NCBI RefSeq assembly: GCF_025244665.1
Contig: NZ_CP104205.1
Span: 1,981,001-2,045,000, forward strand
DNA length: 64,000 bases
Direction: 5' to 3'
Source of the DNA: Maribacter litopenaei
Lineage (GTDB): Bacteria; Bacteroidota; Bacteroidia; Flavobacteriales; Flavobacteriaceae
A program made the position numbers and the translations under genes. The notes beneath the pieces are model-generated. The model had not been told where the DNA came from. It did not search any database and was given only the letters and a program-made list of their open reading frames with translations. Position 1 is the first letter of the stretch. Each line of letters starts with the position of its first letter. Shown in pieces: positions 1-64,000 of the stretch.

Positions 1-5
1 TTATA

Positions 6-680
6 ATGAGAATCGATATTATCACTGTACTGCCCGAACTACTTAAAAGTCCGTTCGAAGCATCGATCCTTAAAAGAGCCATTGACAAAGGTTTGGTGGA
101 AGTCCATCTACACAATTTGAGGGATTACACAGATAATAGTTATAATCAAGTAGACGATTATCAATTTGGTGGGGGAGCCGGAATGGTTATGATGATAGAG
201 CCGATTGACAAGTGCATATCAGAACTTTCATCGCAAAGAAAGTATGATGAGGTCATTTATATGACCCCGGATGGTAATACCCTAAATCAAAAAATCGCAA
301 ATACCCTGTCACTCTTAGAAAATATAATAATTCTTTGTGGTCATTACAAGGGGGTGAATCAACGCGTTAGGGATTTGTTTATCACCAAGGAAATCTCCAT
401 AGGGGATTATGTTTTGTCCGGAGGGGAATTAGGGGCTGCAGTCCTTTGTGACACCGTGATAAGGCTCCTACCTGGTGTTTTGAATGATGAGACTTCTGCC
501 CTTACCGATAGTTTTCAGGATGGATTGTTGGCACCTCCAGTCTATACGAGACCAGCGGAATACAAAGGAATAAAAGTTCCGGAAATTCTACTGAGTGGAA
601 ATTTTGGGAAAATAGAGGAATGGCGTGAAGAAAAGGCCCAGGAGAGAACACAAAAATTAAGACCTGATCTTTTACAATAA
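6..680 (+). CDS. trmD: tRNA (guanine-N1)-methyltransferase TrmD
   Basis: This enzyme methylates N1 of G37 next to the anticodon of tRNAs, using S-adenosylmethionine, and so prevents frameshifting during translation. The 224-residue protein has the usual family length. It begins [12 protein letters not shown], carries GGGAGMVM near residue 57, and has the trefoil-knot SAM-binding stretch [15 protein letters not shown] and [15 protein letters not shown] between residues about 110 and 145. The start ATG lies six bases inside the window, so its promoter is not visible. It is followed by rplS in the same direction, a conserved bacterial pairing. The reading frame is intact. Confidence 0.97.
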
Positions 681-697
681 AATTTGGTCCAAAATAT

Positions 698-727
698 TTG
701 TACATTTTAAATTTCGAAGTATTTTTG
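698..727 (+). promoter_or_regulatory. Bacteroidota-type promoter for rplS
   Basis: TTG at 698-700 is followed by a 19-base spacer and TATTTTTG at 720-727, matching the Bacteroidota TTG/TAnnTTTG promoter form. Transcription would start just after, near GCACC, giving a leader of about 65 bases before rplS. The match is seen directly; use as a promoter is inferred. Confidence 0.6.
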
Positions 728-798
728 CACCCTGTTAAATCAACCTCTGACGAAAATCGTGAACGTTGTTTTGATTTAATTCCAATATTAAAATAAAA

Positions 799-1150
799 AT
801 GGAATCATTAATAAAGTTTGTACAGGACGAATTCGTAGCTAAAAAGGAGTTTCCAAAATTTTCTGCTGGTGATACTATTACGGTATACTATGAAATTAAG
901 GAAGGTGAAAAAACACGTACCCAGTTTTTCAAAGGGGTGGTTATCCGAGAGAAGAGGAACAGGTGCTACCGAAACTTTTACAATACGTAAAATGTCAGGT
1001 ACAGTTGGTGTAGAACGTATATTCCCAATCAATCTTCCTGCACTTCAAAAAATAGAGGTTAACAAGAAAGGTAAAGTACGTAGATCACGTATTTACTACT
1101 TCAGAGGCCTAACAGGTAAAAAGGCAAGAATTAAAGAGGTAAGGTCTTAG
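799..1150 (+). CDS. rplS: 50S ribosomal protein L19 (frame broken by one base)
   Basis: L19 sits at the 30S-50S interface of the ribosome. The first frame reads [12 protein letters not shown] to FFKGVVI, and the second continues [17 protein letters not shown] to ARIKEVRS. Both halves are typical L19. The break is an extra G at 947: CCGAGAG stands where CCAGAG would encode the family sequence VVIQRRGTG. Removing it gives 116 residues, the normal length. L19 is normally essential, so the break is very unlikely to be real. The gene lies downstream of trmD and has its own promoter and a strong terminator. Confidence 0.95.
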
Positions 1151-1175
1151 TTCCAATACTCTGATTATACAGATA

Positions 1176-1206
1176 AAAACACCGAAATTCATTCGGTGTT
1201 TTTTTA
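1176..1206 (+). terminator. rho-independent terminator after rplS
   Basis: AAAACACCGAA and TTCGGTGTTTT form a GC-centred stem with a short ATTCA loop, followed by a T run. It ends the trmD-rplS unit. Confidence 0.85.
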
Positions 1207-1284
1207 TGAACATTTGTTAAAAAGCTAAGTTCATAAATTGTTCATTATTAATTGGTTGCAAAAAATGCCTTTGTATTCATTTTT

Positions 1285-1706: not shown

Positions 1707-1771
1707 CACAAAACTTCCCATAAGCCTTAAATATTAAGGCTAGACCTCACAATTTAGGCTGGATAAAATTG

Positions 1772-1779: not shown

Positions 1780-1799
1780 CACCGCTTGAATTTAAATAA

Positions 1800-4029
<2,230 letters not shown>

Positions 4030-4084: not shown

Positions 4085-4141
4085 AATTATCGTTAACCTT
4101 AAAATTGATAAAGGATTTCTCTTTATTTTTAAAAAAATTCT

Positions 4142-6530
4142 ATGAAGAAGCCTCTTTGGCTATTCCTTTTTCTTTGCTTTTATTTTTCAAATGTGTCATC
4201 GCAGGAAAAATTTACACTAAGCGGGGTCATTACGGAAGCGTCAAGTAATGAAACCCTTATTGGCGTTACAATAGCATTTCCAAGCTTGGGAAGTGGTGCT
4301 ACCACCAACGAATATGGATTCTACTCTATTACCTTGCCAAAAGGCGAATACCAGGCTGTTGTAAGTTATCTTGGATTTAGGGATATCGTCCAAAACATCA
4401 CATTGGAAAAGGATATGAAAATGGACTTTCAACTTTCTGAAGAGGCCGAGCAACTTCAAGAGGTTATCGTCACGGAGAATGTAGAGAAACTGGATATTAG
4501 AAAACCACAGATGAGCGTAAATACGCTTTCTGTAGGAACTATAAAAAAAATACCGGTAATTACGGGAGAAGCCGATGTGATTAAGTCCATATTATTGTTG
4601 CCCGGCGTAACCAATGCTGGTGAGGGCGCGTCCGGTTTTAATGTAAGAGGTGGTTCGGCAGACCAAAACTTGATTCTTTTGGACGAGGCCATCATATTTA
4701 ATTCATCCCATTTATTCGGGTTCTTTTCGGTATTTAATCCGGATGCCATCAAGGATATCAAACTATATAAAGGTGGTATTCCTGCAAGATATGGTGGTCG
4801 GGTATCCTCTGTGTTGGATATTTTTCAAAAGGAAGGAAATAGCAAAGAATTTAAAATGAATGGAGGAATTGGTGCGGTAGCTAGTCGTTTATTGGTAGAA
4901 GGACCCATCAAAAAAGACCAAGCTGCCTTTCTTATAGGAGGTCGTGCCTCCTATGCCCATTTGTTCCTACCCCTATTTGATGTGGACAATACCGCCTATT
5001 TTTATGATTTAAATACAAAGCTTAATTACAAAATCAACGAAAGCAATAATATATATCTTTCTCGGATATTTTGGAAGGGACGTGTTTGGAATTAATGAAA
5101 GCTTCGTGAACACGTATGGAAATGCAGTAGGCAATTTTAGATGGAACCATCTATTTTCTGATAAACTCTTTTCCAATCTTTCCCTAATTTATTCAGATTA
5201 TTACTACGGCTTAAAATTGGACTTTGTTGGGTTCAACTGGAACTCAGGAATACGAAACTTCAACGTCAAATATGATTTAAAACATTATGTGAACGATAAA
5301 CTTCAGGTCAACTATGGCCTCAATAATATTTATTACCAATTCAATCCGGGGAAAATAGAACCTAGCAATGAAAATTCCGGAATCATCGAAGAACAACTGA
5401 TTCAGAAATATGCCAATGAATTTGCGGCATACCTAGATTTTGAGCATCGTCTTACGGAAAAGCTAAGTTTAGGCTACGGACTTCGGTTCAGTTATTTTAA
5501 TAGGTTGGGCCAAGATGAATTGAATGTCTACGCAAATAATAACCCGGTGAATTTTAACCCGCTATTGTATATATACCAAGAGGCCGAACCTATTTCTATT
5601 GCTACATCCGGCAGAAATGAAAGTTTAGCCAAATTTACCAATTGGGAGCCACGGCTTTCCCTTTCCTATACTTTAACGGACGATAGCTCCATTAAATCAA
5701 GCTATACGAGGTTGGCACAATACCTACACCTACTTTCCAACACTAGCTCCCCTACTCCATTGGATGTCCGGACACCTAGCGATGCATTTGTAAAACCACA
5801 ATTATTAGATCAATATGCTCTTGGATATTTTAAAAGTTTCAATAATGACGATTATAGTCTAGAAACGGAAGTATTTTACAAGGATGTCCAAAATAGAATA
5901 GACTATATTGATGGGGCGAACCTAATTGCCAACAATTCCATTGAACAGGTTATTTTAAATGGCGAAGCTAGGGCTTATGGTCTAGAGCTTTTATTTCGTA
6001 AAAATGAAGGGAAATTTCAAGGATGGTTGTCATACACTCTATCCAAATCGGAACAGCGTACACCAGGTAGGTTTATTAATGGAACCAATACTTTGGAGAC
6101 AGGGATTAATAACGGGAATTGGTATAACACCCCATATGACAAGACCCACGATATTTCTTTGTTTGCCAGCTATGATTTAAATGAAAAATGGAGTTTTAAT
6201 ACGAATTTTGTGTATCAAACGGGGCAACCCACTAATTATCCCATCGGCCAATTCGAGTTTCAAGGGCTCGCTGTTCCCTATTACGGATTAAGAAATGAAC
6301 AAAGGCTACCTGCTTACAACAGATTGGATATATCAGCAAGTCTAACTCCAAGAAAGAATAAGAACAGAAAAATTAAGGGGGAATGGGTATTTAGTATTTA
6401 TAATGTGTACAACAAGCGAAATGCCGCCTCCATTAACTTTAGAAGGAATGACGATACAGGTGCCAATGAAGCGGTAAGAACGAGCATTTTTGGTATTGTC
6501 CCAGCGGTAACCTATAATTTTAAGTTATAA
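4142..6530 (+). CDS. TonB-dependent outer-membrane receptor with N-terminal carboxypeptidase-like domain (one frame break)
   Basis: The protein starts with a signal peptide (MKKPLWLFLFLCFYFSNVSSQ). Next comes a carboxypeptidase-regulatory-like beta domain (residues about 25-110, GVTIAFPSLGSGATTNEYGFYSI), a plug domain (about 120-225, LLLPGVTNAGEGASGFNVRGG) and a beta-barrel ending in aromatic-rich NFKL. The frame breaks at 5063, where TCTCGG replaces TCTGG. Repair gives YLSGYFGRDVFG and about 795 residues. The DUF4249 lipoprotein starts three bases after it, and that pairing is recurrent in Bacteroidota. The ligand is unknown. Confidence 0.9.
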
Positions 6531-6533
6531 GTA

Positions 6534-7389
6534 ATGAAAAATCTGCTTTATTGCTTACTAATCATATTACTTGCCTCTTCCTGTGAAGATGTCATAGAAG
6601 TTGATTTACCAACCGAATCCCCACGCCTATCGGTAGACGCGGTGATAAGAATGGATACTTCTCTGGCCATGACCACTGCAGGAATTAAATTAAATTTGAC
6701 CAGTTCATTTTTTGATAACAACAATTCTTTATCAGATGCAGATGTCGTTATTCGGAATCTTGATTTCGTATCCGATAATCCTTCTGAAAGCGATGAAATC
6801 ACCTTTGAAGAGGTTTCACCTGGTATGTATGAAGCGATCGGAAGCACATCCTTTTTTACAACTGGACAGTTGGCACTCTTCATAAACTTCAATGGTGAGC
6901 AATATTATGCCAAAACAAGATTTGTGCCCACCTCACCCATTGAAACATTGGAACAAGGAGAGCAAACACTTTTCACGGGTGAGGAAACGGAAGTAATTCT
7001 GAGTTTTACGGACAATGGAGGACGTAACGATTTTTATATTTTTGATTTTGGATTCAATGAATTTCACGGTTACCGAGGACGAATTCTATCAAGGGCAGCG
7101 TTTTGAGTTTTCTTATTTCTATGAAGATATTGAGCCAGGGCAGGAACTAACCATTAGTATATTGGGGGCGGATGAATCTTTCTTTAATTATATGAATCAA
7201 ATAATCGTCCAAGCTGGTGGCGACCAAGGTCCCTTTCAAACTCCTGCCGCCACAGTACGAGGAAATATTTTTAACGTTACGGGCATCCCTAATCCGGAAG
7301 ACCTGGAGTCCATTGAACAGACGGAAGATTTTCCCCTAGGTTATTTTGCGGTCGTTCAGGAATATCAAAGTAACATTACTATAGAATAA
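6534..7389 (+). CDS. DUF4249 outer-membrane-associated lipoprotein (one frame break)
   Basis: The N-terminus has a lipoprotein signal with lipobox LASSC (residues about 14-18), so the protein is probably anchored to a membrane by a lipidated cysteine. The rest resembles DUF4249 proteins (YFIxxFGFNEF-like NDFYIFDFGFNEF, then EDEFYQGQRFEFSYFYED). The frame breaks at 7066-7067, where TTCACGG stands for TTCTGG; repair gives NEFLVTEDEFY and 284 residues. It is translationally close to the TonB receptor and probably forms a receptor complex with it, in the way SusD-like lipoproteins pair with SusC. The function is inferred from the pairing only. Confidence 0.85.
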
Positions 7390-7630: not shown

Positions 7631-8327
7631 TTGCCGAGACACTTTATTTCGGGCCGGCTTTTTCCACTTATTGTAGAGCTTGCCATAATCGTAGTCCAAC
7701 ACCGTTTCCTGTCGTTCCAACTGTCCAGCTGCAAAGGCACGCTGTAAAATATCCTCTATGAGATAATCCTCTTCGATTTCATCGGGATGAAATTCTTCTT
7801 TTATACTTATCTTGAATAGTTTGGCAGTGGTATTGTACCGAGAAAGCCCGCCATCCATTCCTAAGTTCCTTTACCAAGTCGAATGCTGTGGTACCCGTTT
7901 GCCGGTATATCAGTTTTACCAAAATCTGCCCCTCCGTTCTAGTCAATTTCTTTAATTCTTCCGAGAATTCTTCCTCAATATACTTTTGAACCTTCTCGGT
8001 ATATTTTTTACGCTTTCTAGTTTTGGTGATTTTGGTAAGGCTGTCATTAAGTTCCACCAAACGTTCCGCGGCCAATTTGGCATAAGGATAGACCTTATGG
8101 GTCTTACGCCTTAAAATATAATAACGGAGCTTGTCCTCGTAAGAAGAAAACTCCAGCTCACCAAAGACATAGGCCTCATCCAAGGAAATGGAACTCTGAA
8201 CAATGGAATCCCCTGCAAGGATAATCATCTTCTCGGATAGAGAGTCCAATTCCTGTTCGGCCACCTGCCCAATGGATTTTGTTTGGGATATCAGGAAAAC
8301 AAGCAATAAAAAACTAATTCTCAGCAT
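7598..8327 (-). CDS. DUF4294 secreted protein (one frame break)
   Basis: A 242-residue exported protein with signal peptide MLRISFLLLVFLISQTKSIGQ. The body carries the DUF4294 pattern (YYILRRKTHKVYPYAKLAAERL, then GQILVKLIYRQTGTTAFDLVKELRNGW). The frame breaks at 7840 (extra G on the + strand). Restoring TCTGG on the coding strand gives GWRAFWYNTTAKLFKIS, which joins the two halves. The gene is convergent with, and overlaps, the preceding small membrane gene, and is divergent from the M42 peptidase. The biochemical role is unknown. Confidence 0.85.
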
Positions 8328-8522: not shown

Positions 8523-9612
8523 ATGGCTAACAAAAACATCATCAATAAAAAATCCCTCGATTTTTTGGAAAAATACTTGAACAATGCGTCTCCTACCGGT
8601 TATGAATGGGAAGGACAAAAGCTCGGATGGAGTATTTAAAACCTTATGTGGACACCTTTATTACCGATACATATGGGAGTGCCGTAGGTGTTATTAACCC
8701 GGATGCAAAATACAAGGTAGTAATTGAGGGACATTCTGATGAAATTTCATGGTATGTAAATTACATAACGGAGAATGGACTTCTATATGTAATTAGAAAT
8801 GGCGGGAGCGACCACCAAATCGCACCTAGTAAGTGGGTGAACATACATACCAAAAATGGTATTGTAAAAGGGGTTTTTGGTTGGCCTGCTATACATACCA
8901 GGAAAAAATGATAAGGAGGAACCTCCAAAACTGGACAACATATTTATTGACATTGGTGCCAAGAATAAGGAAGAAGTAGAGAAAATGGGGGTGCACGTAG
9001 GTTGTGTTATTACATACCCGGATACATTTCAAGTTTTGAACGGTGATAAATATGTTTGCAGGGCGATTGATAACCGTGCTGGTGGGTTTATGGTTGCGGA
9101 AGTGGCCCGACTATTACACGAAAACAAAAAAAAGTTGCCATTTGGTCTATACATTACCAATTCGGTCCAAGAGGAAATTGGACTTCGCGGTGCGGAAATG
9201 ATAACCCGAGACGATAAAACCAAATGTTGCCATCGTTACCGATGTTTGCCATGACACCACGACCCCGATGATTGAGAAAAAGACCCAGGGTCACACAGAA
9301 ATTGGGGCCGGATCCGTCATCTCCTATGCGCCTGCCGTACAAAATAAACTTAGGGAGCGAATTATTGAAACGGCTGAAGCCAAAAAAATTCCATTCCAAA
9401 GAATGGCGGCCTCCCGTATGACAGGAACAGATACGGATGCCTTTGCCTACAGCAATGGTGGTGTTGCCTCAGCATTGATTTCATTGCCTTTGCGCTACAT
9501 GCATACTACTGTTGAAATGGTTCATAAAGACGATGTTGAAAACGTTATACGATTGATTTACGAAACACTATTAAATATCAAAGAAGGGGAAACCTTCAGT
9601 TATTTTGACTAA
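8523..9612 (+). CDS. M42 family metallopeptidase (three frame breaks)
   Basis: A glutamyl-aminopeptidase/endoglucanase-type M42 peptidase, a cytosolic two-metal aminopeptidase. Metal and catalytic motifs are VVIEGHSDEISW (His, Asp), AIDNRAGGFM (bridging Asp), VQEEIGLRGAEM (Glu-Glu), VTDVCHDTT (Asp) and RYMHTTVEMVH (His). The frame breaks near 8624 (lost T), 8901 (extra G) and 9208 (extra G). Each lies in a TCTGG or CCAGA word, and repair gives GQKLWMEYLKPYV, HTRKNDKEEPP and MITQTIKPNVAI. The start ATG at 8523 gives MANKNIINKKSLDF, and the restored length is 362 residues, normal for M42. Confidence 0.92.
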
Positions 9613-9646: not shown

Positions 9647-10204
9647 ATGGACGAACTTATAGACATTTTGGATGCCGAGGGAAATCCTAAAGGGATATCC
9701 CTTATGAAATCGGAAGCGCACCGAAAAGGACTTTTTCATGCTACCGTTCATATTTGGTTTTATACGTCCAACAGTGAAGTACTACTTCAACAAAGAGGTA
9801 AGGATAAAGATACCCACCCCTTACTTTGGGATGTTTCCGTAGCCGGACATGTTGGGGCTGGTGAAATAATTGAGACCTCTGCGGTCCGTGAGGTATCCGA
9901 GGAAATTGGTCTAAAAATTAGCCCATCGGATTTATTAAAAATCGGTGCGTTTAAATCAGTTCAAAAGCATTCAGAGGATCTGGTTGATTGTGAATTCCAT
10001 CACACCTATATATGTCGGTTACATGTACCATTGGAAGACTTGAAAAAACAGGAGAGCGAGGTAGAAAGTCTAGCGTTGGTTCCTATCGATCAATTCAGAA
10101 ATGAACTCTTGGCTGAAAAATCAAATAGGTATGTACCCCATAGCCATGACTACTATAGGACAATAATTAAAGCGCTTGAAAAAGGCATTAAAGCGAATCT
10201 ATAA
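9647..10204 (+). CDS. NUDIX hydrolase, isopentenyl-isomerase-like
   Basis: A 185-residue NUDIX protein. The Nudix box is GHVGAGEIIETSAV followed by REVSEEIGL (residues about 66-88), matching Gx5Ex7REUxEExGU. The N-terminus DELIDILDAEGNPKG and the segment HATVHIWFYTSNSEVLLQQRGKDKDTHP place it with the YfcD/isopentenyl-diphosphate-isomerase-like branch. Members of that branch include true IPP isomerases and uncharacterised hydrolases, so the substrate is open. The start lies at the end of the previous terminator and no Shine-Dalgarno is evident, which is normal for flavobacteria. The 3' end overlaps convergent hisS by 17 bases. Confidence 0.88.
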   Translation: MDELIDILDAEGNPKGISLMKSEAHRKGLFHATVHIWFYTSNSEVLLQQRGKDKDTHPLLWDVSVAGHVGAGEIIETSAVREVSEEIGLKISPSDLLKIGAFKSVQKHSEDLVDCEFHHTYICRLHVPLEDLKKQESEVESLALVPIDQFRNELLAEKSNRYVPHSHDYYRTIIKALEKGIKANL

Positions 10205-11931
10205 ATTTTTGGGTATCCGCCAAGCTGTACGTTCTTTGTTCACCACTCTGCATGTTCTTCACCACAAACGAACTATTGTTCAGCTCTTTCTCGCCCAAAA
10301 AAATTACATAGGGTACATTCCGATTATTGGCGTATTTCAACTGTTTATTAAGTTTTGCATCCGAAGGGTAGATGTCCGCCTTAACACCATGTTTTCTTAA
10401 CACCGTTGTTAGCTTTAAGGCGGCTAAACCCTCTTTAGTTCCAAAGTTGAAGCATAACACATCCAAAGAACGGTCTATGGCCTCCGGAAATAGGTCCAAT
10501 TCCTCTAGGGATCAAATAAATTCTGTCCAAACCAAAAGAGATGCCCACACCACTGACATCATTTAATCCAAAGATCCCAGTTAAGTCATCATATCTACCG
10601 CCACCACCTATGGAACCCATAGAGACACCCTCCGGAGCAGCTACTTCAAAAATGGCCCCTGTATAATAATTCAATCCTCTCGCCAAAGTGACATCAATGA
10701 CCAATTTGGCGGACTGTAATCCCAAATTGGAAATGGTTTCCAAAATAAAACGCAGTTCCTTAACCCCTTTACTTCCTTCCTCTGAGGATTTTAATAATTG
10801 CTCTAATATCTGTAACTGGTCCGTATTACTGCCATCCAAATTGAACAGGGGGGCAGCTTTTTCAATGGCGGTTTCCGAAATCCCTTTAGAGAGCATTTCT
10901 TTTTTAACGCCCTCCTCCCCTATCTTATCCAATTTATCCAAGGCTACTGTAAAATCGATCAGCAAATCCTTTGCCCCGATGACTTCGGCGATACCTGCGA
11001 GAATTTTACGGTTGTTCAATTTAATGGTGACACCTTCCAGTTTTAAATCGGAAAACACTGTATCGTACAATTGTATAAGCTCTACTTCTTGTAAAAGCGA
11101 ATCGGAACCTACGACATCCGCATCACATTGATAGAATTCCCTAAAACGTCCTTTTTGAGGCCTATCAGCACGCCATACCGGCTGAATTTGATATCGCTTA
11201 AAGGGAAAATCCAATTCATTCTGATGCATGACGACATAACGGGCAAAGGGAACCGTTAAATCATATCTTAGGGCCTTCTCAGAAATAAATGGGGTAAGAT
11301 TTCCGGAATCAAGATTTTTAATTACCTGAACATACAAAGCGTCTAATGGTAATTCAGACAAATCATCACTAAAAATATTCTCGGATGAGAAATCCATAGA
11401 AGAGTTATCTTGTTTGGATTTATTTTTAACTATAGTAAAAACCCATTTAAGTAAATATTCTTTATAGGACTTTATAGCTTTAAAATAAATATCACTAAAT
11501 CTATTATTATAATCATCTTTGAAATTGTGTAGATGAAAATTGAATATTCTTACTATATTTTCATTTCTCAAATATTCACTAAGAATGATGTTTTTATTTC
11601 GAATGTCCTCTCCAAATTCTTGGTCAACACTGGAACATATCTTTTTAAGTCGATCAGTCATTACTAATCTAAAACTCTTTGACTCCAAAATATCTCCAGC
11701 AAATTTTTCGAAATAATCCCCTGAATTTAAGATCTTGAAAATCAAACGGTCACCTTCGTCCCCATATTTGCCCATCAAGGTTTCTGAATTTTCAAAGGAT
11801 GGAGTTTCAATAGGCTGAAATCCAAACGTTTGAAAATGCTTTTTAACTACATCAAAAATATAGTTTCGTTTTACTACTTCGGCGGGTGTAAAATCGCGGG
11901 TTCCTTTAGGTATAGAGGGTTTTTGTGCCAT
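10188..11931 (-). CDS. hisS: histidyl-tRNA synthetase with large insertion (one frame break)
   Basis: Class II synthetase that charges tRNA-His. The N-terminus is [15 protein letters not shown]; motif 2 is in [12 protein letters not shown] and [23 protein letters not shown]; the histidine loop is [13 protein letters not shown]; motif 3 is [11 protein letters not shown]; an anticodon-binding domain follows. Residues about 73-205 form an extra block of roughly 125 residues between ILNSGDY and [10 protein letters not shown], where relatives known to me have about 20. The restored protein is about 580 residues rather than about 455. The frame breaks near 10508-10511; repair gives a normal RIYLIL(V)EELDLFPE join. 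This lesion is not at CCAGA. Confidence 0.93.
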
Positions 11932-12538: not shown

Positions 12539-12992
12539 TTAGTTCTGCTCTGCTACCACCTCAAAAGGAAAATCTACAACTACCTCTCTGTGAAGTCTTA
12601 TCTGCGCATTGTAAGGACTCTGTTCTTTTTACGGAACCACCTTGGATGCTGATAAACTTCTTATCGATAGTATGACCTTCTTTTTCAATGGCATCCGCCA
12701 AATCACCATTGGTAACGGAACCAAACAATTTGTCTCCTGCTCCAGCTTTGGCAGCAATTTTCAATTCCAAAGCCTTCAGAGCTTCAGCTGTTTTTTTAGC
12801 GGCATCCACAACTTTCTTTTCTTTGTGGGCCCTTTGCTTTAAGGTTTCGGCCAAAACTTTCTTAGCCGATGGTGTTGCCATGGTCGCCAAGCCTTGTGGA
12901 ATAAGGTAATTTCTACCATATCCGTTCTTAACGCTTACCAAGTCATCTTTAAAACCTAAATTTTCTACGTCTTCCTTTAATATAAGCTCCAT
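12539..12992 (-). CDS. rplI: 50S ribosomal protein L9 (one frame break)
   Basis: L9 binds 23S rRNA at the base of the L1 stalk. MELILKEDVENLGFKDDLVSVKNGYGRNYLIP is the conserved N-terminal RNA-binding domain. A long helix and a C-terminal domain follow, ending IRLHREVVVDFPFEVVAEQN after repair. The frame breaks near 12615-12620: the coding strand reads ACAGAGTCCTTAC where ACAGGTCCTTAC would give RTGPYNAQIRLHRE. This lesion is at a GGACC/GGTCC word rather than CCAGA. The restored length is 150 residues. The gene is last in the rpsF-rpsR-rplI operon. Confidence 0.95.
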
Positions 12993-28678: not shown

Positions 28679-28729
28679 ATTTTAGCCTTCCATCTGCATT
28701 TTATAGCTTTAACGAAACTCAAAATGCAA

Positions 28730-33681: not shown

Positions 33682-33707
33682 CTGTTATCTTTAGTATTTT
33701 TAAGTCC

Positions 33708-34384: not shown

Positions 34385-35725
<1,341 letters not shown>

Positions 35726-36562: not shown

Positions 36563-36661
36563 AATAGTTTTCAGGTTTAATGGTTGATACTCTACTTATG
36601 ATATGACCCTAATATACGTAGAAGGTCACAAATTTTTTAGGCTAAACCCCTAAAAAACAGA

Positions 36662-48179: not shown

Positions 48180-49531
48180 ATGAACGAGACACTACTATAT
48201 ATCATCATAACCGTACTTTGTTTGGGAATAGGCTTCTTTTTAGGCCATTATATTCAAATCCTAAAGACCAAGTCAAGCCAAAGTAAACTGGAAGAAGAAA
48301 ATCGTCAGTTAGCACTTATACGGACCCAACTGGAAAATAAGAATTTGACCCTTGAAAACGAGCGGGAGGATATTCGTTTAGAGAAGGAGCGATTGGGAAA
48401 TCAAATTGTTAGATATCAGGCAGATTTGGAAAACCTACAGTCGAAAAATTCGGAACAAAAAGAGGAAGTAGAAAAACTTCAGGAAAAATTCACCAAGGAA
48501 TTTGAGAATCTTGCCAATAAAATTTTAGAGGAAAAAAGTCTGAAATTTACGGAACGCAACGAGAAGAACATCAAGAATATACTAAGCCCCCTAAACGAAA
48601 AAATACAACTATTCGAAAAGAAGGTGGAGGAAAGTCAAAAGGAAAACATCAGTATTCATTCTGCACTCAAGGAGCAATTACTGAACCTACAGACCCAAAA
48701 CCTAAAGATCACCCAAGAAGCGGAAAACCTTACCAAGGCCCTTAAGGGAGATAGTAAAATGCAAGGAAACTGGGGCGAGTTGGTCTTGGAACGCGTTCGG
48801 AGAAATCAGGCTTGGAAAAGGACCGTGAGTATAGCGTGCAGCAAAGCTTCACAAGGGAAGATGGTTCTAGGGTGATGCCGGATGTCATCATCAACCTGCC
48901 CGATGGTAAGAAAATGATTGTGGACTCCAAGGTATCCCTTACGGACTATGAGCGTTATATAAATGCCGAAGAAGAATTCCAGGAAAAGTTTCTAAACGAC
49001 CATATCAACTCATTGCGCAGGCACGTTGATCAATTATCCTCTAAAAAATATGAGGACCTGTATGAAATGGAAAGCCCGGATTTTGTACTTATGTTCGTTC
49101 CTATTGAACCAGCTTTTGCCATCGCTATAAACAACGATAATTCTCTATACAACAAAGCTTTTGAGCAAAATATTGTCATTGTTACGCCGTCTACCCTACT
49201 TGCTACGCTACGTACTATAGACAGCATGTGGAACAACGAAAAACAACAACGAAACGCCATAGAAATTGCCAAGCAGGCCGGGGCATTATACGATAAGTTC
49301 GAAGGATTTGTATCTGACTTGACCAAAGTAGGGAAAAAGATGGACGAGGCAAAGACGGAATACAAAGGTGCCATGAATAAATTGTTCGATGGTCGCGGCA
49401 ATATTATCACTAGTATTGAAAAGTTGAAAAAAATGGGTGCCAAGGCCAAAAAATCGCTACCTGAACCCATTCTTAAAAGGGCCAAGGAAGATGATTTTGA
49501 GGAAGAACAGGAACCTAGATTAAATTTATAA
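48180..49531 (+). CDS. rmuC: DNA recombination protein RmuC homologue (one frame break)
   Basis: A 450-residue protein with an N-terminal membrane helix (LLYIIITVLCLGIGFFLGHYI), a long coiled coil (residues about 35-180, rich in Glu, Lys and Leu) and the RmuC nuclease-like domain (QGNWGELVLERVLEKSGL after repair, PDGKKMIVDSKVSLTDYERY, FVPIEPAFAIAI, ATLRTIDSMW). The frame breaks near 48798, where TTCGG replaces TTCTGG. RmuC limits inversions at short repeats in E. coli; its exact activity is unknown. Confidence 0.92.
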
Positions 49532-49534
49532 CCC

Positions 49535-49899
49535 ATGAAAAGAATTCTATTCCTTTTTCTTGGCGGTTGCGCGGTGCTACTGGCCTTGATTTATGCCTTT
49601 ATCTATTATGTGCCCTATAGTGAAGGTGTACGTTACGGGAACTTATTAAAATAAGTAACAAGGGAGTATTGGTCAAAACATGGGAAGGTGAAATAAGCCA
49701 AGGAATTTCGGGAGCTCAGATCTTTTCTTTCTCAGTTTTGGATAAAGATAAGGAGGTAATACAAAAACTACAGGACTACCAAGGGCAATACGTTAAGGTA
49801 AATTACACGGAGCGCTATGCCACCTTTTTTTGGTTGGGAGATACCAAGTATTTTATTACCCAAGTAGAGAAGGAACAATCCCCTCATTTTAGAAATTGA
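49535..49899 (+). CDS. small membrane-anchored protein of unknown function (one probable frame break)
   Basis: The first frame gives a membrane helix (RILFLFLGGCAVLLALIYAFIYYV) and stops at 49652. The second, joined near 49634, continues ELIKISNKGVLVKTWEGEISQG, SFSVLDKDKEVIQKLQ, ending YFITQVEKEQSPHFRN. CGTTACGGGAAC probably stands for a word containing TTCTGGGG, giving GVRSGELIKISNKG and 121 residues. The C-terminal half resembles small flavobacterial proteins often beside a thioesterase gene. Its stop TGA overlaps the next ATG. Confidence 0.72.
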
Positions 49900-50446
49900 T
49901 GCAAGAATTTAAAAGTGTAAAGGATTCCCAGGTTTCCATAACAGAGCTAATGCTTCCCTCCCACTCCAATTTTGGTGGAAAAGTGCATGGTGGCCATATT
50001 TTAAACTTGATGGATCAAATCGCTTTTGCGTGCGCGTCCAAACATTCACAACGATATTGCGTAACAGCTTCCGTTAATCGAGTGGATTTTTTGAATCCTA
50101 TCGATGTTGGGGAATTGGTTACATTAAGGGCTTCCATCAATTATACAGGTAAAACTTCTATGGTAGTGGGAGTTCGTGTGGATTCTGAAAATATCACTAC
50201 AGGAAGAAAAAGACATTGCAACTCATCTTATTTCACGATGGTAGCCAAAGATGAAAATGGTAAAAGTGTTTCTGTACCCGGATTGATAGTTACAGATAAA
50301 CAAGGGGTGAGACGATTCGCCGAAGCAAATATCGAAAATTGGAGGCCAAAGAGCGAGATACAAAATTCGAGTCCTATAAATTTAATCCCGACCAGTATCT
50401 TAAGGAATTAGAAAATGAAAACTGTAAAGTAGATCCGGGTTCTTAG
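49899..50446 (+). CDS. acyl-CoA thioesterase, hotdog fold (one frame break)
   Basis: A 182-residue acyl-CoA hydrolase of the YciA/BACH type. The active-site segment is SHSNFGGKVHGGHILNLMDQIAFACA, followed by VTASVNRVDFLNPIDVGELVTLRA and GKTSMVVGVRV. The start ATG at 49899 overlaps the previous TGA, indicating coupling. A base is lost near 50331 (CCGAA for CCAGAA); repair gives VRRFARSKYRKLEAKERDTKF and a tail ending CKVDPGS. The end overlaps the convergent pgl gene by four bases. Confidence 0.9.
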
Positions 50447-51157
50447 GATATTTCAGAAGCTGCATCTTGATCCAAAAACCATACTAATTCTTTAGACGTT
50501 GGGTTTACCAATGATGCCGGATACTTTTCGCTCCCTGATTCATTTTGGGTAATTATCCGTACTTTTTCAGATTTACCAGCTCCAGTCACCAAAAATGCCA
50601 CCACTTTGGCATTATTAATAACCCTTCCGGTTATGGTTACCCTTCGTTGACCTGATTCTCGGATGTAATGCTACCTCACAATTCGCATCGGAATTCCACA
50701 AATGGATTTCATGTGGAAAAATGGAAGCCGTGTGACCGTCATCTCCCATTCCTAAAATGACCAAATCAAACTGGGGTACCCCTTCTACCATGGGAAGTTT
50801 CTTTTCCAATAAGCTAGCGTAGCTTTTTGCTTCTTTCTCGGGATCTTCCTCACCTTTAACCCTATGAATATTCCTTTGGGGAATATCAATTTTTGATAAT
50901 AAATGAACTACCGTCATCTTATAGTTGCTCTCATCATCTGTAGGTGGTACGCAACGTTCGTCACCCCAATAGAAATGAACTTTTTCCCAATCAATTTCAT
51001 CTTTAAAGGAGGTAGCCAATTCATCAAAAACGATTTTTGGTGTACTTCCTCCGAGAAGAGCAATGTGAACCGTTTTACTTTCGCCAATAAAGTCCGCCAA
51101 ATATTTAGAAAAAGCTATGGCCACTTCCTGCTTATCCTTATATATCTTCAATTCCAT
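50443..51157 (-). CDS. pgl: 6-phosphogluconolactonase (one frame break)
   Basis: The second step of the oxidative pentose-phosphate pathway. The 237-residue protein of the DevB/SOL family shows IALLGGSTPKIVFDEL, HFYWGDERCVPPTDDESNYKM, LVILGMGDDGHTASIFP and, after repair, ALHPESGQRRVTITGRVINN. The frame breaks at 50660 on the + strand (TCTCGG for TCTGG). It starts nine bases after zwf on the same strand. Confidence 0.95.
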
Positions 51158-51166
51158 AAAAAGTGC

Positions 51167-52699
51167 TTAACAAAGTATACAATAGCTCTCATCGTCCGTA
51201 AGTTGCTCTCCAGGATTTCGCCAGTATCCATCCCCCTCTATCAAATCATCAGAGTTTCTATAGTCCCCAAGTACCGGAAGGATAACCATACATACGTACG
51301 TCTTTACCCTTTTGCCAATAGTCCAAAATAGGATCTACAAATTCCCAAGCGGCCTCCACCTCATCAGCCCTTGCATATAGGGTGGCATCGCCTTGCATAG
51401 CATCCAATAAAAGTCGTTCATAGGCCTCCATGACATGTGTCTCCATCAAACTGGAATAGTAAAAGTCCGATTTGCGCGTTCCACCTTAAAACCTTGACCA
51501 GGCACCTTTACACCAAACTTTACCAGTATTCCTTCATCAGGTTGTATTCTGATAATCAATTTGTTATCCTTATTATGAATACCTGATTCTTTAAATATTT
51601 GATGATGTGGCGTTTTAAAGTGGATCACCACCTCTGTTACTTTTGTAGGCATTCTTTTGGCAGTTCTTACGTAAAACGGAACATCCTTCCATCGCCAATT
51701 ATCCACAAAGAACTTAATGGCGGCAAAGGTCTCGGTCGTAGATTCCGGATTCACATCTTCTTCCTGTCTATACCCTTTTATGGTTTTACCCTGAATATCG
51801 GATTCCATATATTGCGCCCTAATCGTATTGTCATGCAAGGTCTTTTCATCGCGCATGACCCTCAAGGATTTTAGTGCCTTTACCTTTTCGTCTCTAATTT
51901 CCTCCTGGCTTATCCCCTATGGGCGGTTCCATTACAATAAGGGAAACTATTTGGAGTAAATGATTCTGGAACATATCTCTTAGGGCACCTGACTTATCGT
52001 AATAGCCACCACGTTTTTCCACGCCCACACTTTCGGCATTGGTAATCTCTATGTGTTTAATATAATTCCTGTTCCATAAAGGTTCAAAAATGCTATTCGC
52101 AAAACGGGTCACCAATACATTTTGTACCGTCTCCTTTCCAAGGTAGTGATCAATTCTATAAATGCGGGACTCTTTAAAATAGTTTTGAATTCCATTGTTC
52201 AAAGCCTTGGCGGTTTCCAAACTGTATCCAAAGGGCTTCTCTACGATCAAGCGCTTCCACCCATTATTCGGGCACTAAGACCTGAATCGGCCAAATTTTT
52301 GGCAATAGTCTCATACAAGGTCGGAGGGGTTGACAGATAGTACATAATGTTTCCCTGTGTTCCTTTTTCCTTATTTAAATCCCCTACTCTTTCTCTTAGC
52401 GATTCATAGTCCACATCATAGGATTTTCCTAGGTCATGATAATAAAAGATATCGGCAAATTTTCGTATTCCCTCTTCATTCTTTTTCTTCAATTTATCCT
52501 TTAAATAGGCACTTTCCAGTACCGTTCTATTTCGAAAATCCTCATCCGTCATATCACTCCTACTAGTTCCCAAAACAACAAAATGCTCGGGCAATTGGCC
52601 CGCCTCAAATAGGTTGTAAAGAGCGGGCACCAACTTTCTTGCGGTTAAATCTCCTGATGCCCCAAAAATGACTAGCATTTGATTCTCTGTTTTCTTCAT
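51167..52699 (-). CDS. zwf: glucose-6-phosphate 1-dehydrogenase (four frame breaks)
   Basis: Zwf oxidises glucose-6-phosphate with NADP, the entry to the oxidative pentose-phosphate pathway. Motifs are [13 protein letters not shown] (NADP site), [13 protein letters not shown] (active-site His), [14 protein letters not shown] and [17 protein letters not shown]. Breaks lie near 52269 (lost base), 51904 (extra base), 51468 (lost base) and 51257-51263 (complex, in a GGACCAGA word). All fall on CCAGA or TCTGG; repair gives [41 protein letters not shown] and GTWGPENSDD. The restored length is 510 residues from the Met at 52699. It heads zwf-pgl and is divergent from gnd. Confidence 0.95.
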
Positions 52700-52836
52700 A
52701 TGTGTCAACCAAAATTTATGTCCCTAAAAGTATCGAAAACTATCGCCAATACCAATGTGTTGAGCTGTCGATATGGGAGAATTGTAGATATTTTCACTTA
52801 CTTTTGAAACTTACGATATTATGGAAAAAGCTTTTT

Positions 52837-54655: not shown

Positions 54656-57508
54656 TTATTTGCTCAAATACATTTTCCTTCTCGCATACAGATTATAGAA
54701 CTCGTCATCCTTCAGGCTGTCGATAAATAGTATGCTTTCTCCCGTACTTTTCATTTCAGGTCCAAGGTTCTTGTTCACATTAGGGAACTTATTAAAGGAA
54801 AAAACCGGTTGCTTAATAGCGTACCCTTCTAAGTGGGGCTTAAAATCAAAATCCTTGATTTTCTTTTCGCCCAACATCACCTTTGTGGCATAATTCACGT
54901 AGGGTTCCTTATAAGCTTTTGCAATAAAAGGAACGGTTCTCGGATGCACGTGGATTCGCCTCAATTATATATACGATGTCATCCTTAATCGCAAATTGTA
55001 TATTTATCAGACCGACTGTATTAAGGGCCAAAGCAATTTTTTTGGTATGATCCTTTATTTGCTGCATCACAAACTCCCCTAGGTTGAAAGGTGGTAAGGT
55101 TGCGTTGGAATCCCCGAGTGAATTCCACAAGGTTCTATATGCTCCATGATACCTATTATATAGACATCTTTACCATCGCAAATAGCATCCGCTTCCGCTT
55201 CTATTGCCCCATCCAAATAGTGGTCTAGAAGAAGTTTGTTGTTCGGGATTTTTCTTAAAAGGTCCACTACATGTTCTTCCAATTCCTCTTTATTGATTAC
55301 GATTTTCATTCCCTGTCCACCCAATACATAAGACGGCCGTACCAATAATGGGAAATCCAACTCATCCGCCAAGGCCAAGGCTTCATCGGCTGTTTCCGCA
55401 ACACCAAATCTAGGATACGGAATATCATTCTTTTTTAATAGGTCAGAAAAGCTTCCCCTATCCTCTGCCAAATCCAAGGATTCGAAACTGGTACCCAAAA
55501 TCTTAATACCATACTTGGAAAGCTTTTCTGCCAATTTAAGGGCAGTCTGGCCTCCTAGCTGTACAATAACCCCTTCCGGATTTTCATGTCTAATAATATC
55601 ATAGATGTGCTCCCGTAAGACAGGTTCAAAATATAGTTTGTCTGCTGTATCAAAATCAGTTGAAACTGTTTCAGGGTTACAATTGATCATAATCGTTTCA
55701 TAACCACATTCTGCAGCTGCCAATACCCCGTGAACACAGCAATAATCAAACTCTATCCCTTGCCCAATTCGGTTAGGATCGGAACCAAGAACAACTATTT
55801 TCTTTCTATCGGTTACCACACTATCGTTCTCCACATATCTGGTACCGTCCGGCTTTTCAATTTCTTCTTCAAAGGTGGAATAGTAATACGGTGTCATAGC
55901 CTTAAATTCGGCCGCACAGGTATCTACCAATTTGTAGACTCTGTTTACATTGAGTTCCGTACGCTTATTGTAAACCTCGCTCTCGTAGCAATCCAGCATA
56001 TGGGCAATTTGCCTATCTGCAAAACCTTTTTGCTTCGCTTCCAACAATAATTCCTTGGATAAGGTTGCTATGGTGTATTTAGATATTTCCTTTTCCAACT
56101 GATATAATTCCTCGTACTGCTTCAGGAACCACATATCTATTTTGGTAATTTCATGAATCCTGCTCAGCGGAATCCCCATTTGTATGGCATCGTAAATCAC
56201 AAATACCCTGTCCCAACTTGGAATGGTCAACTTGCTAATGATCTGATCATAGTTTTTATAACCCTTTCCATCGGCACCTAAACCATTTCGTTTGATTTCT
56301 AAGGATTGTGTTGCCTTATGCAGTGCCTCTTGGAAAGAACGACCAATTCCCATTACCTCACCTACGGATTTCATTTGTAATCCCAATGTACGGTCAGAAC
56401 CCTCAAACTTATCAAAATTCCATCTTGGTATTTTTACGATGACGTAATCCAAAGTCGGCTCGAACAAGGCGGAAGTGGATTTGGTAATCTGATTCTCCAA
56501 TTCGTCCAAGCTATAACCTATGGCCAGTTTCGTAGCCACTTTTGCTATTGGATATCCCGTTGCCTTTGAGGCCAATGCGGAGGATCTTGAAACCCTGGGG
56601 TTGATTTCGATAGCGATAATATCTTCCTTTTCATCTGGACTCACTGCAAACTGCACGTTACAACCACCCTCGAAATCCCCAATACTGCGCATCATTTTGA
56701 TGGCCATATCCCTCATCCTTTGGAAAGTCCTATCGGATAAGGTCATGGCAGGTGCGACGGTAATGGAATCACCGGTATGGATACCCATAGGATCCATATT
56801 CTCAATGGTACAAATAATAACTACGTTATCATTCTTGTCACGTAACAGCTCTAATTCATATTCCTTCCATCCCATCAAGGCCTTATCGATCATCACTTCA
56901 TGGATTGGGGAAATTTCCAATCCATGGCTCAATAAAGCATCAAAATCCTCGGGTTTGTAAACGATAGAGGCTCCTGCTCCACCTAAAGTATAAGAAGCCC
57001 TAATAACTAATGGAAAGCCAAATTCCTGGGCAATTTCCTTTCCCTTTAAAAATGATGTTGCCGTTGCCTGTGGTGCCATTCCCACACCTATTTTCAACAT
57101 CAATTCACGGAACTGTTCTCGATCCTCAGTAATATTGATAGCATCAATATCCACACCTATAAGTTCCACTCCAAAATCCTCCCAAATTCCCTTTTTATCA
57201 GCTTCAATACAAAGATTCAAAGCGGTCTGACCACCCATGGTAGGCAGTACTGCGTCGATTTGTGGGTGTGCCTTTAAGATTTCTACAATTGATTTAGTGG
57301 TCAGGGGTTTTAAATACACATGATCCGCCATAGAAGGGTCGGTCATAATGGTTGCGGGATTACTATTGATCAAAATAGTTTCTATCCCATCTTCCCTCAA
57401 GGAGCGAAGAGACTGACTTCCTGCATAATCGAACTCACAAGCCTGACCAATAATAATTGATCCGGAACCAATAATCAAAATTGAATTTAAATCTTTTCTT
57501 TTAGGCAT
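54656..57508 (-). CDS. carB: carbamoyl-phosphate synthase large subunit (two frame breaks)
   Basis: CarB makes carbamoyl phosphate for pyrimidine and arginine synthesis. Two ATP-grasp halves are seen: the first with IIGQACEFDYAGSQ, VIRASYTLGGAG and EINPRVSRSSALASKATGYPIA; the second with GQGIEFDYCCVHG, VRPSYVLGGQGM and EANPRASRTVPF (after repair). The frame breaks near 55115 (lost base; repair gives GIHSGDSNATLPPFNL) and near 54941 (extra base). Both lie on CCAGA/TCTGG. The restored length is 950 residues, normal for flavobacteria. No carA is adjacent. Confidence 0.95.
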
Positions 57509-59557: not shown

Positions 59558-60219
59558 TTAATCCAAAATAATTGTAGGGAGGTGTTCATTAAACCATTTT
59601 GCCCTGTGAATAATCATTGTATGGGTTCCGTTTTTTACTACTGTACAATCTGATATGTTTGCAATAGGGAAAACGGTATCCTTATCTCCATGAATATGTA
59701 CCAAATTATAGGGATATGTTGTTTGATTCCAATTCACCATTTGATGGATGCACCAATCTATATAATATTTATCCCGTATCGATAGGTACTTTTCATAAAG
59801 TTCCAATCTTTTGACAACAGTTTCTCCAAAAGCATATTTTGCCAAAAGTTCCACATTGTTCACCAAACCTGTGGGTAATAATTTATGGATCTTTGTATAA
59901 CGCGCAAAAAGCATTCGTTTTGGTAGTTCCTTTTTTAATTTGACACTGGAAACAATGATTATTTTCTGAACCGAAATCTGTTTTGCCATCTCCTGAACCA
60001 AGATTCCGCCCAATGATACACCAATAAGTACAGGGTTGGGATGCTTAATTTTCGCAATCATCTTAGTGGCGTATGATTCTAGTGACTGCCCTTTTTCAGG
60101 AATAAACCAATTTAAAAAATGTAGGGTGAAAATTTCTTCGGTAGTCTGATATATTCGAAAATAGAATGGCTTGCTGCCATTCCTGGCATGAAATAGACAT
60201 GGGTTTTAGAATCCTGCAT
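59558..60219 (-). CDS. alpha/beta hydrolase (one frame break)
   Basis: A 220-residue hydrolase starting MQDSKTHVYFMPGMAASHSIF at 60219. A base is missing near 60139 (CCGAA for CCAGAA on the coding strand); repair gives IRLPEEIFTLHFLNWFIPEKGQSLESYATKM. The nucleophile elbow is LIGVSLGGILV, an acidic residue lies in IHGDKDTVFP, and a His in VKNGTHTMIIHRA. The substrate is unknown. No signal peptide is seen. Confidence 0.82.
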
Positions 60220-60384
60220 AGAAAGCAAATGTCATAAAAACTAGGAATTTAGCTAAATTTTTGCTAGTTTTGAACAACGATTGTTGATAAGTTGTATCAA
60301 CAACTCGGTCGAGAAAAATGGATTTAATTACGATTGGGGAACATCGTAATTTTTTTATCTAAACCAAACACAAAAATCAACTAT

Positions 60385-62035: not shown

Positions 62036-62069
62036 AACTCTAGGAGTTCTTTCTCCTTAATTTGCAAAT

Positions 62070-63245
62070 TTAGTAATTACGCCACTTCTTGGTTATTTCA
62101 AATACATGGTTCAGAATATCGGCATCGGCATCTGTGAATTCCACTCCTCTTCGGCCATCATTACTTTGGCTGCTTCAAATGCTTTCCGGGGCATATAGGC
62201 CGAAAAACCGGAAGCTCCACCCCAGCTAAAACTAGGCACAAAATTTCTTGGGAATCCTGGAACATAAATATTGGAATTCACCCCAATCACGGTACCCGTA
62301 TTAAACATCGTATTTATGGCAGTTTTACTATGGTCACCCATCATCAAACCACAAAATTGCAAGCCAGTCTGCTCAAATTTCTCGGTAGCGTAGTTCCATA
62401 AACGCACCTTGGCATAGTTGTTCTTGAGGTTGGAGTTATTGGAATCCGCACCAATATTACACCACTCGCCCAATACCGCATTTCCAAGGTATCCCTCATG
62501 TCCCTTACTGGAATATCCAAAAATCACAGAATTGCTTACCTCTCCACAAACCTTTGAATAAGGTCCTATTGTAGTAGCTCCATAGAGCTTACCCCCCATC
62601 TTAACTATGGCATGGTCACAAAGGGCCGGACCACCGCGGATAAGACTACCTTCCCAAATCTCGGCGTGTTTACCAATGTATATAGGCCCATCGGTTGCAT
62701 TTAAAATGCTGTATTCCACCTTTGCCCCTTCCTCTAAAAATATTCGTTCTGGGCAAATAAGATTATTGGTCTTTGATATTGGCTGACTTTTCCTACCCTT
62801 GGTCAAAAAATCGAAATCCTCCTGAAGTGCCCTTTCATTTTGTGAAAAAATATCCCAGGTATTCTTTATTTGAAATAGTTCATTATCATATATAACCACA
62901 CTGAACTTGCTCCATTCACCTTCGTGGTTTATTTCACCGAGACCGATAGGCAATTACAGTGTCATCTTTTTTTAAAACCTCCGAGGATTTTAGTGACTGG
63001 ACCTTAACCAATAAATTGGCATCGGGCAATATGCTGCCGTTTATGAAAATATTATCCTCTCCTAATTCCATAGGAAATTTAACACTCAGGTAGTCTTCCG
63101 TGTAAAAGCTTATCGATGCATTTAGGTAAGCCTCCCATTTTTCCTTTATCGTCATGATGCCTATCCTTACTTCGGCAACAGGACGAGTAAATGTAAACGG
63201 AAAAAGGTGTTCCCTTACAGGGCCATCAAAAAGAATACAGTTCAT
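62070..63245 (-). CDS. GlmU-family sugar nucleotidyltransferase/acyltransferase-like protein (two frame breaks)
   Basis: A 391-residue protein with an N-terminal nucleotidyltransferase-like part (MNCILFDGPVREHLFPFTFTRPVAEVRIGI) and a left-handed beta-helix (ARHAEIWEGS-like KHAEIWEGSLIRGG, VCGEVSNSVIFG, LGNAVLGEWCNIGADSNNSNL). The frame breaks at 62939 (TCTCGG for TCTGG; repair gives VIAYRSGEINHEGEWSKF) and near 62152 (lost base; repair gives MMARRGVEFTDADADILNHVFEITKKW). Without the second repair, the last 15 residues would be missed and replaced by a spurious tail. The product is likely a nucleotide-sugar enzyme; its substrate is not clear. Confidence 0.85.
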
Positions 63246-63335
63246 GGATATTTTTTGTCAAAATTAATCATTAGACTAGGACTAGTTATCCAATTCCTGC
63301 TTAAATACTTAAAAAATAGATGGTTTCCAATGAAA

Positions 63336-63361
63336 AACGCCCCCAAGAATGGAGGCGTTGA
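63336..63361 (-). terminator. terminator of rpmE2
   Basis: AACGCC-TCCATTCTTGGG-GGCGTT hairpin on the minus strand, followed by TTTCATTGG, just past the rpmE2 stop. Confidence 0.6.
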
Positions 63362-63384
63362 ATTTTTTAAGGATAAAAGATTTA

Positions 63385-63657
63385 CTATTCCTCTTCTTTC
63401 TTCTCTGTTTTTGAGAATTTCTTGTATTTGTTCTTGAACTTGTCAATTCTACCCGCAGTATCCAAAAATTTGGCCTTACCAGTATAGAAAGGATGGGAAG
63501 TTCTAGAAATCTCTAATTTTACCAATGGATATTCTACGCCATCAACCTCTAATGTCTCTTTTGTATCCGCTGTAGATTTGGTAAGAAAAACATCGTCGTT
63601 GGACATGTCCTTGAAAGCTACCAATCTATAATTTTACTGGTGTATTCCTTTTTTCAT
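63385..63657 (-). CDS. rpmE2: 50S ribosomal protein L31 type B (length-neutral lesion with stop)
   Basis: A 90-residue protein from ATG 63657: [21 protein letters not shown] (after repair), then [34 protein letters not shown] (typical L31B, no zinc cysteines). In the given sequence codon 8 is a TAA stop: CACCAGTAAAA stands for CACCCAGAAAA, again at CCAGA. The change is length-neutral, so the frame downstream is intact. The acidic-basic tail SKTEKKEEE is usual. It has its own terminator. Confidence 0.92.
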
Positions 63658-63836
63658 TTTTAAAATCGTTAACGCACCCATTCCAACGGGCACTTATTTT
63701 AAGGCTGCAAATTTAGTCATTTTATTAGAATGACCAATTTATTACTCAGAAAAAACAGAAAATAAATGTAGGCTTTTTTGTAACTTTTTTATTTATCCGC
63801 ATACTGATAAGGTAATCAACTTTTAAAACTATAAAA

Positions 63837-64000
63837 ATGGAAGAAAATAAACCGAAAACTGGGAAATTTGCATTGATTTACGGAGCCATACTTGGAGGGA
63901 TTAGTATGGTTTTTGGTTTAATGCTTTTTTCGGCGGATATGCATTATCAAGGCGGAATTGCAGTTATGCTCATCAGCCTTGCTCTATCGATTGCTGGCAT
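63837..64000 (+). CDS. DUF4199 family membrane protein, 5' part
   Basis: The gene runs off the window. The first 54 codons give MEENKPKTGKFALIYGAILGG, then ISMVFGLMLFSADMHYQGGIA and VMLISLALSIAG, with two membrane helices separated by a short loop. This is the start expected of DUF4199 proteins, about 170-residue membrane proteins common in Bacteroidota and often near glycosyltransferase genes. The rest is not visible. Confidence 0.7.
   Translation, partial: MEENKPKTGKFALIYGAILGGISMVFGLMLFSADMHYQGGIAVMLISLALSIAG

Follow-up and report, generated by a model that had tools for sequence, protein, structure and literature searches.

We analysed a 64 kb stretch of the one-contig, 3.86 Mb Maribacter litopenaei genome (bases 1981001-2045000, hereafter the window), in which 28 genes carry 46 frame breaks that cluster on a single five-base word, CCAGA. 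We consider it likely that the breaks are not in the DNA, and that a CCAGA restriction-modification pair, made up of a C5-cytosine methyltransferase (enzyme 1) and an HNH nuclease, would place a 5-methylcytosine (m5C) mark that a nanopore base-caller untrained on it has misread. The errors are specific to one word and take a small set of forms, the gene pair is present in the genome, and a second genome combines a related pair with the same errors. From the lesion word and the two damaged genomes we infer the m5C mark and the target of enzyme 1, which is presumed to be active. An earlier reading made from the letters of the window alone (the sequence-only reading) had placed 42 of 48 lesions, in thirty genes, on CCAGA, and had blamed the read-out rather than the genome, by way of a modification at that word. 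We recover the cluster with slightly different counts, 40 of 46 lesions in 28 genes, and the attribution to a modification is supported by the word specificity, the multiple wrong forms and the intact relatives.

Breaks were called without reference to any motif, by three-frame, frameshift-aware protein-to-DNA alignment with the open reading frames of relatives as queries. Two genomes of the same genus, G005 and G007, carry the region in reverse order relative to the window at 74-83% DNA identity; identity to a further relative, G002, is 71-80%. This yielded 52 breaks against G005 (63 genes aligned) and 49 against G007 (64 genes aligned). The 46 common to both references, defined as calls at most 15 bases apart and of the same sign, comprise 28 one-base gains and 18 losses. 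Nine unshared breaks (6 and 3) were left out of the count, and these mostly lie in low local identity or at gene ends; an exception is the break at 40977, which was called only against G005, lies in sequence of high local identity and is spelled CCGAGA. A damaged form of CCAGA lies within 14 bases of 40 of the 46 shared breaks and within 10 bases of 39, compared with random-place rates within 10 bases of 2.8% for the gain forms and 9.3% for the loss form. The forms counted were CCGAGA, CCGTGA, CCAGGA and CCTAGA for gains and CCGA for losses; they were picked after the lesions had been inspected, so the word-blind tests carry more weight. When relatives were aligned with one another as controls, 3, 3 and 4 breaks appeared in 93, 90 and 93 genes, none of them on a damaged form, and in other regions of the M. 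litopenaei genome 11 of 12 breaks fall on such forms. Homopolymer errors were rejected as the cause, since just 3 of the 46 lesions have a run of at least 4 within 4 bases.

Word counts that presuppose no motif single out the same five bases. In the window no 5-mer is more depleted than CCAGA/TCTGG, with 24 copies where a Markov model predicts 64. Over 164 kb it occurs 64 times against 297 expected from two relatives (22%, the next-lowest word standing at 61%), and over 127 kb of other regions of the genome 42 times against 110.8 expected. M. litopenaei keeps CCAGA at 5 of 128 aligned places, versus 40 of 142 between relatives, and at none of the 22 places at which G005 and G007 share it. Of 504 five-base words compared between conserved flanks, CCAGA shows the lowest retention and the largest drop; one-base length changes are also more frequent in it (10/128) than in any other word having 25 places or more. 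The word is lost in every flanking context examined. Genome-wide, CCAGAA is about nine-fold depleted, with 341 copies against 2,682 of a reversed-word control (ratio 0.13); 13 members of the genus hold 2,589-3,585 copies, and the ratio never falls below 0.36 in the 65 other genomes counted.

Replacements of CCAGA centre on its third base, A, for which the assembly offers several wrong forms: CCGGA, CCGA, CCGAGA and CCGTGA. We considered CCGGA as the true word, since by edit count it accounts for 37 of the 46 lesions and CCAGA for 34, against 8.2 for CCAGA and at most 21 for the best word at random places. CCGGA rivals CCAGA in this test because one edit from the damaged forms yields either. 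It is ruled out by its excess in M. litopenaei (406 versus 306) while CCAGA is lost, and by the relatives, which at the 46 lesion sites hold CCAGA at 6, 8 and 10 (0.9 expected each) and CCGGA at 5, 3 and 1.

The sequence-only reading was right that no candidate enzyme lies in the window; a strong one lies 26-29 kb upstream. A genome-wide search for DNA methyltransferases, which that reading had also proposed, found three C5 loci with the PF00145 profile, one of them in two pieces, and among these enzyme 1 is the likely candidate. Enzyme 1 (genome 1952124-1953629) joins an N-terminal helix-turn-helix domain to a C5-cytosine methyltransferase domain (PF00145 E 3.2e-88; TIGR00675 317 bits against a cut-off of 100.65), and its gene overlaps that of the HNH nuclease (1953622-1954719; HNH_2 match, E 1.7e-10). 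The segment has 32.5% GC against 39.5% around it, its flanking blocks align to G005, and no homologue of enzyme 1 was found in the sampled stretches of G002, G005 and G007. Within the family the enzyme is rare, occurring in 3 of 397 genomes, M. litopenaei included (E <= 1e-60). The pair is probably a two-gene restriction-modification system acquired horizontally. At the corresponding place (genome 1952019-1954882), C2 of G005 has about 2.8 kb of unaligned DNA, resembling an exchange hot spot.

A one-genome-per-species collection yielded 160 relatives of enzyme 1, of which we retained 80, with Bacteroidota, Campylobacterota and Pseudomonadota among them. Of 77 loci long enough to show one, 68 have a homologue of the HNH gene beginning within 400 bp after the methyltransferase. 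Over the 80 relatives, a recognition-like region (residues 301-430, limits that we set ourselves) has a median conservation of 84% and the catalytic part 77%; because two of the six search peptides fall in that region, this is weak evidence of one common target.

Other modification systems of the genome fit less well. Of the types that the sequence-only reading had suggested, IIS, IIG and III, type III is unlikely, given that PF01555 (Mod) has no match genome-wide at E <= 0.001. PF02086 (MethyltransfD12) has no match in the genome either. The matches of PF02384 and PF07669 include no type IIG enzyme: there are two HsdM loci of type I, one being broken, and two loci read from sequence as PrmC-like and TrmN6-like. 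Among system types, a type II C5-cytosine system fits best. The type I loci lie at genome 2872067-2876002 and 3611979-3615878, and the HsdM of the former is split over two frames, the same read errors being the probable cause. Type I targets are bipartite, a misfit for a bare pentamer lost in all contexts examined, and we rejected these systems as the source. C5 enzyme 2 (genome 3681918-3683159) is found in 66 of the 397 family genomes (E <= 1e-60); in M. litopenaei the two small genes after it (202 and 124 aa) had no hit in Pfam, NCBIfam or PADLOC at the thresholds applied. Enzyme 2 was rejected as the CCAGA marker: it is not matched in the second damaged genome, that of Lacinutrix neustonica, and 45 genomes (any platform) that carry it keep CCAGAA. 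C5 enzyme 3 (genome 3175056-3176109), which is broken and adjoins a fragment that matches the EcoO109I nuclease (PF14511; L050:334-702), was likewise rejected, being unmatched in L. neustonica.

That second genome emerged from a screen of the flanks of enzyme 1 relatives (loci of at least 8 kb) for loss of CCAGA, and from whole-genome counts made for 30 of the 80. With M. litopenaei included, 29 of 31 genomes with enzyme 1 or a relative keep CCAGAA at a ratio of at least 0.41; two of the 29 appear identical, by their counts, to G296 and G368 of the 65-genome count. Since 29 of the 30 other genomes with a relative of enzyme 1 keep the word, it is not lost biologically. L. neustonica HL-RS19 (NZ_CP113088.1; L107, G417) holds 339 copies of CCAGAA against 1,785 of the control, and in the 560 kb sampled CCAGA is its most depleted 5-mer. 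The damaged spelling CCGAGA occurs 23.0 times per 100 kb in L. neustonica and 22.9 in M. litopenaei, compared with 3.1 in Winogradskyella eximia (80 kb). Aligned with sampled G007 proteins, L. neustonica showed eight frameshifts in 14 genes after filtering (coverage >0.85, local identity of 0.6 or more, terminal 15 residues excluded), and all eight fall on the same damaged forms. When the window-region proteins of G005, G007 and G002 served as references, three breaks were called consistently across them, all on these forms; the forms are absent from the remaining L. neustonica breaks, which either a single reference supports or which lie at low-identity gene ends. The sole PF00145 match of L. 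neustonica is a homologue of enzyme 1, with an HNH gene adjoining, and enzymes 2 and 3 are therefore not common to both damaged genomes. Overall identity between the two homologues is 81%, and that of their recognition-like regions is 82%.

In the mechanism that we propose, the cell would mark 5'-CCAGA-3' (TCTGG on the opposite strand), and native DNA would have been read by a nanopore base-caller untrained on the mark, without short-read correction. The consensus would then fail at the central A, which would be called as G, be lost, or acquire an additional neighbouring base, producing apparent frameshifts. The marking enzyme is most likely enzyme 1, the C5 methyltransferase with the HNH partner, and the marked base is probably the second C, adjoining the misread A. 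More tentatively, and with somewhat more doubt than confidence, we suggest that the whole methyltransferase-HNH family shares the CCAGA target, which a single C5 enzyme would guard either by marking both strands or by marking one strand alongside a two-site HNH nuclease. Type III and MmeI-like systems are familiar examples of one-strand marking with a two-site nuclease; to our knowledge, C5/HNH pairs are not.

It is conceivable, though we think it unlikely, that CCAGA is modified by another enzyme, for example by N6-methylation of the misread A, with the C5 pair playing no part in either genome. The misread base is A itself, and the most familiar Mod and type IIG enzymes that act on asymmetric five-base words are adenine methyltransferases. 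In M. litopenaei, however, PF01555 and PF02086 are without a match and PF02384 and PF07669 lead only to HsdM, PrmC-like and TrmN6-like loci. Moreover, m5C at CCAGA has been published, for the enzyme NEIS0771 of Neisseria meningitidis, and m5C at CCWGG likewise gives consensus errors inside the word (PMC6591954). A plain fault of software, in which one laboratory's base-caller or polisher would misread CCAGA in any DNA, modified or not, seems improbable. It would accord with the damage being seen in two genomes only, but 0 of 65 other genomes (any platform) show CCAGAA damage, and no such fault was found among the matches listed in the nanopore literature naming CCAGA. The second damaged genome was also reached by following the enzyme rather than CCAGA alone. 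Least credible of all is that the lesions are real, with CCAGA lost by mutation or restriction avoidance, or the breaks bypassed by programmed frameshifting. The deposited sequence does contain the breaks, and genomes can come to avoid words under the influence of restriction-modification systems. Yet ribosomal proteins, histidyl-tRNA synthetase, priA (five times) and carB are among the broken genes, and gains, losses and A-to-G changes converge on one base where decay of m5C would give C-to-T. The word is, besides, retained by 29 genomes with relatives of enzyme 1, and L. neustonica has the same damaged forms. Errors of reading fit the several wrong spellings of a single base, the damage to housekeeping genes, the intact copies in relatives and the low completeness, estimated at 81.68% for the M. 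litopenaei assembly.

Several points weigh against a misread m5C mark laid down by enzyme 1. It is unusual for an asymmetric word to be served by a single C5 enzyme. Of the 46 breaks, six (12623, 15639, 35208, 36256, 49639 and 51266) lie off CCAGA. The flanks of enzyme 1 relatives do not avoid the word (1,348 occurrences against 1,407.6 expected), so that active restriction is not evident. The link to the enzyme comes from two damaged genomes, which makes it strong, not conclusive; that both were sequenced on a nanopore platform is something we infer, and the intactness of the other 29 of 31 we put down to short-read sequencing on the style of several record titles only. In L. neustonica the methyltransferase search covered PF00145, which leaves some room for an adenine methyltransferase there. 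NEIS0771 and enzyme 1 (as proposed) share the word and C5 methylation, a likeness of target. Finally, the modification-mediated errors described in Listeria monocytogenes are mainly mismatches, whereas one-base gains and losses are prominent here (PMC10687267).

Some of the off-word lesions may have a second source. GGACC/GGTCC is the second most lost word, kept at 5 of 82 places versus 18 of 62 between relatives, and GGAC or GTCC lies within 8 bases of three of the six off-word lesions (6.7% of random places). GGACC/GGTCC may thus be a second modified word, perhaps marked by C5 enzyme 3.

The broken genes of the window are given below in window coordinates, "on" and "off" referring to the CCAGA word. 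Intact G005 copies were profiled for 26 of the 28, three of them without a Pfam match; the other two, icd and hydrolase, bear the labels of the sequence-only reading, and DUF4249 is its label for a gene whose intact G005 copy has no Pfam match. That reading's list of broken genes had omitted hisS, rplI and the SpoU-like and MscS-like genes, all of which are also broken.

799..1147, + strand, ribosomal protein L19 gene: one break (942), on.
1806..4026, + strand, icd (label): four breaks (2717, 3261, 3364, 3746), all on.
4129..6527, + strand, TonB-dependent receptor gene: one break (5059), on.
6531..7386, + strand, DUF4249 (label): one break (7058), on.
7634..8327, - strand, DUF4294 gene: one break (7844), on.
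8523..9609, + strand, M42 peptidase gene: three breaks (8624, 8899, 9203), all on.
10191..11628, - strand, histidyl-tRNA synthetase gene (hisS): one break (10512), on.
12542..12992, - strand, ribosomal protein L9 gene (rplI): one break (12623), off.
14635..17086, - strand, priA: five breaks (15215, 15639, 16162, 16461, 16594), only 15639 off.
19911..21799, - strand, serA-like gene with 2-hydroxyacid dehydrogenase domains: one break (20185), on.
24144..24594, - strand, PEMT/ICMT-like methyltransferase gene: one break (24342), on.
25230..25872, + strand, DUF4337 gene: one break (25538), on within 14 bases.
26038..27826, + strand, DEAD-box helicase gene: three breaks (26865, 26944, 27785), all on.
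28724..30413, + strand, alpha-amylase family gene: one break (28810, low local identity), on.
31285..31807, - strand, Polyketide_cyc2/SRPBCC-type gene: two breaks (31628, 31723), on.
31855..32507, - strand, SpoU-type methylase gene: one break (31931), on.
33675..34266, + strand, gene whose intact G005 copy has no Pfam match: one break (34193), on.
34385..35725, + strand, adenylosuccinate lyase gene (purB): two breaks, 34813 on and 35208 off.
35763..36653, - strand, MscS-type channel gene: one break (36256), off.
41238..42708, + strand, S41 peptidase gene: one break (42485), on.
48180..49528, + strand, rmuC: one break (48797), on.
49535..49896, + strand, gene whose intact G005 copy has no Pfam match: one break (49639), off.
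49899..50443, + strand, 4HBT thioesterase gene: one break (50318), on.
50446..51182, - strand, 6-phosphogluconolactonase family gene (pgl): one break (50662), on.
51170..52702, - strand, glucose-6-phosphate dehydrogenase gene (zwf): four breaks, 51266 off and 51469, 51908 and 52270 on.
54659..57508, - strand, carB (carbamoyl-phosphate synthase): two breaks (54944, 55117), on.
59561..60277, - strand, hydrolase (label): one break (60138), on.
62073..63257, - strand, sugar nucleotidyl transferase (GlmU-like) gene: two breaks (62155, 62942), on.

Extrapolated from 46 breaks in 64 kb, the M. litopenaei assembly would contain about 2,800 false frame breaks, in keeping with its completeness of 81.68%. 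Annotations, pseudogene counts and trees drawn from this assembly or that of L. neustonica are unsafe; NZ_CP113088.1 is titled a complete genome and carries the CCAGA damage, and its genes need re-reading before use. The error pattern can also serve as an indirect methylome assay. It hints at the target of a methyltransferase-nuclease pair that is widespread, and other genomes assembled from long reads only can be scanned for the same pattern. If the family does share CCAGA, its specificity was read from the errors of two public assemblies.

The nuclease FspEI requires CmC, so that a mark it detects in CCAGA would be on the second C, beside the base misread here. NEIS0771 (M.Nme15193ORF2725P) is an m5C methyltransferase of N. 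meningitidis with the target CCAGA (PMC7973814, PMC7046676), so that C5 methylation of this asymmetric word has a recorded precedent. The NEIS0771 mark went undetected in single-molecule real-time (SMRT) sequencing, and the target was confirmed by MspJI cleavage (PMC7973814); the combined MspJI and FspEI signal was CCAGR, which the authors considered a possible mix of CCWGG and CCAGA enzymes (PMC7046676). The passages of these papers drawn on here mention no nuclease partner for NEIS0771, whereas enzyme 1 has its HNH partner. A metagenome assembly of the Neisseriaceae (L152) carries a methyltransferase-HNH pair.

Dcm is an orphan enzyme, unlike enzyme 1 with its HNH partner. Its word in Enterobacteriaceae, CCWGG, carries m5C, and consensus errors cluster there when the base-caller is untrained (PMC6591954); the likeness lies in m5C within a word starting CCAG, and the difference in that CCWGG is palindromic and CCAGA is not. 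In L. monocytogenes, modification-mediated nanopore errors arise at GCAGC and GCTGG/CCAGC and are removed by whole-genome amplification (PMC10687267). There, as here, the errors are confined to pentanucleotides, and the modification is lineage-specific; the words differ from CCAGA, and the enzyme that modifies the CCAGC strain was left unclear there. Modification-linked nanopore errors have been described in other species as well (PMC11610573). In the literature searched we found no precedent for tying a CCAGA target to a helix-turn-helix C5/HNH pair through assembly errors. The kind of effect is already known, and m5C at CCAGA is on record in one species.

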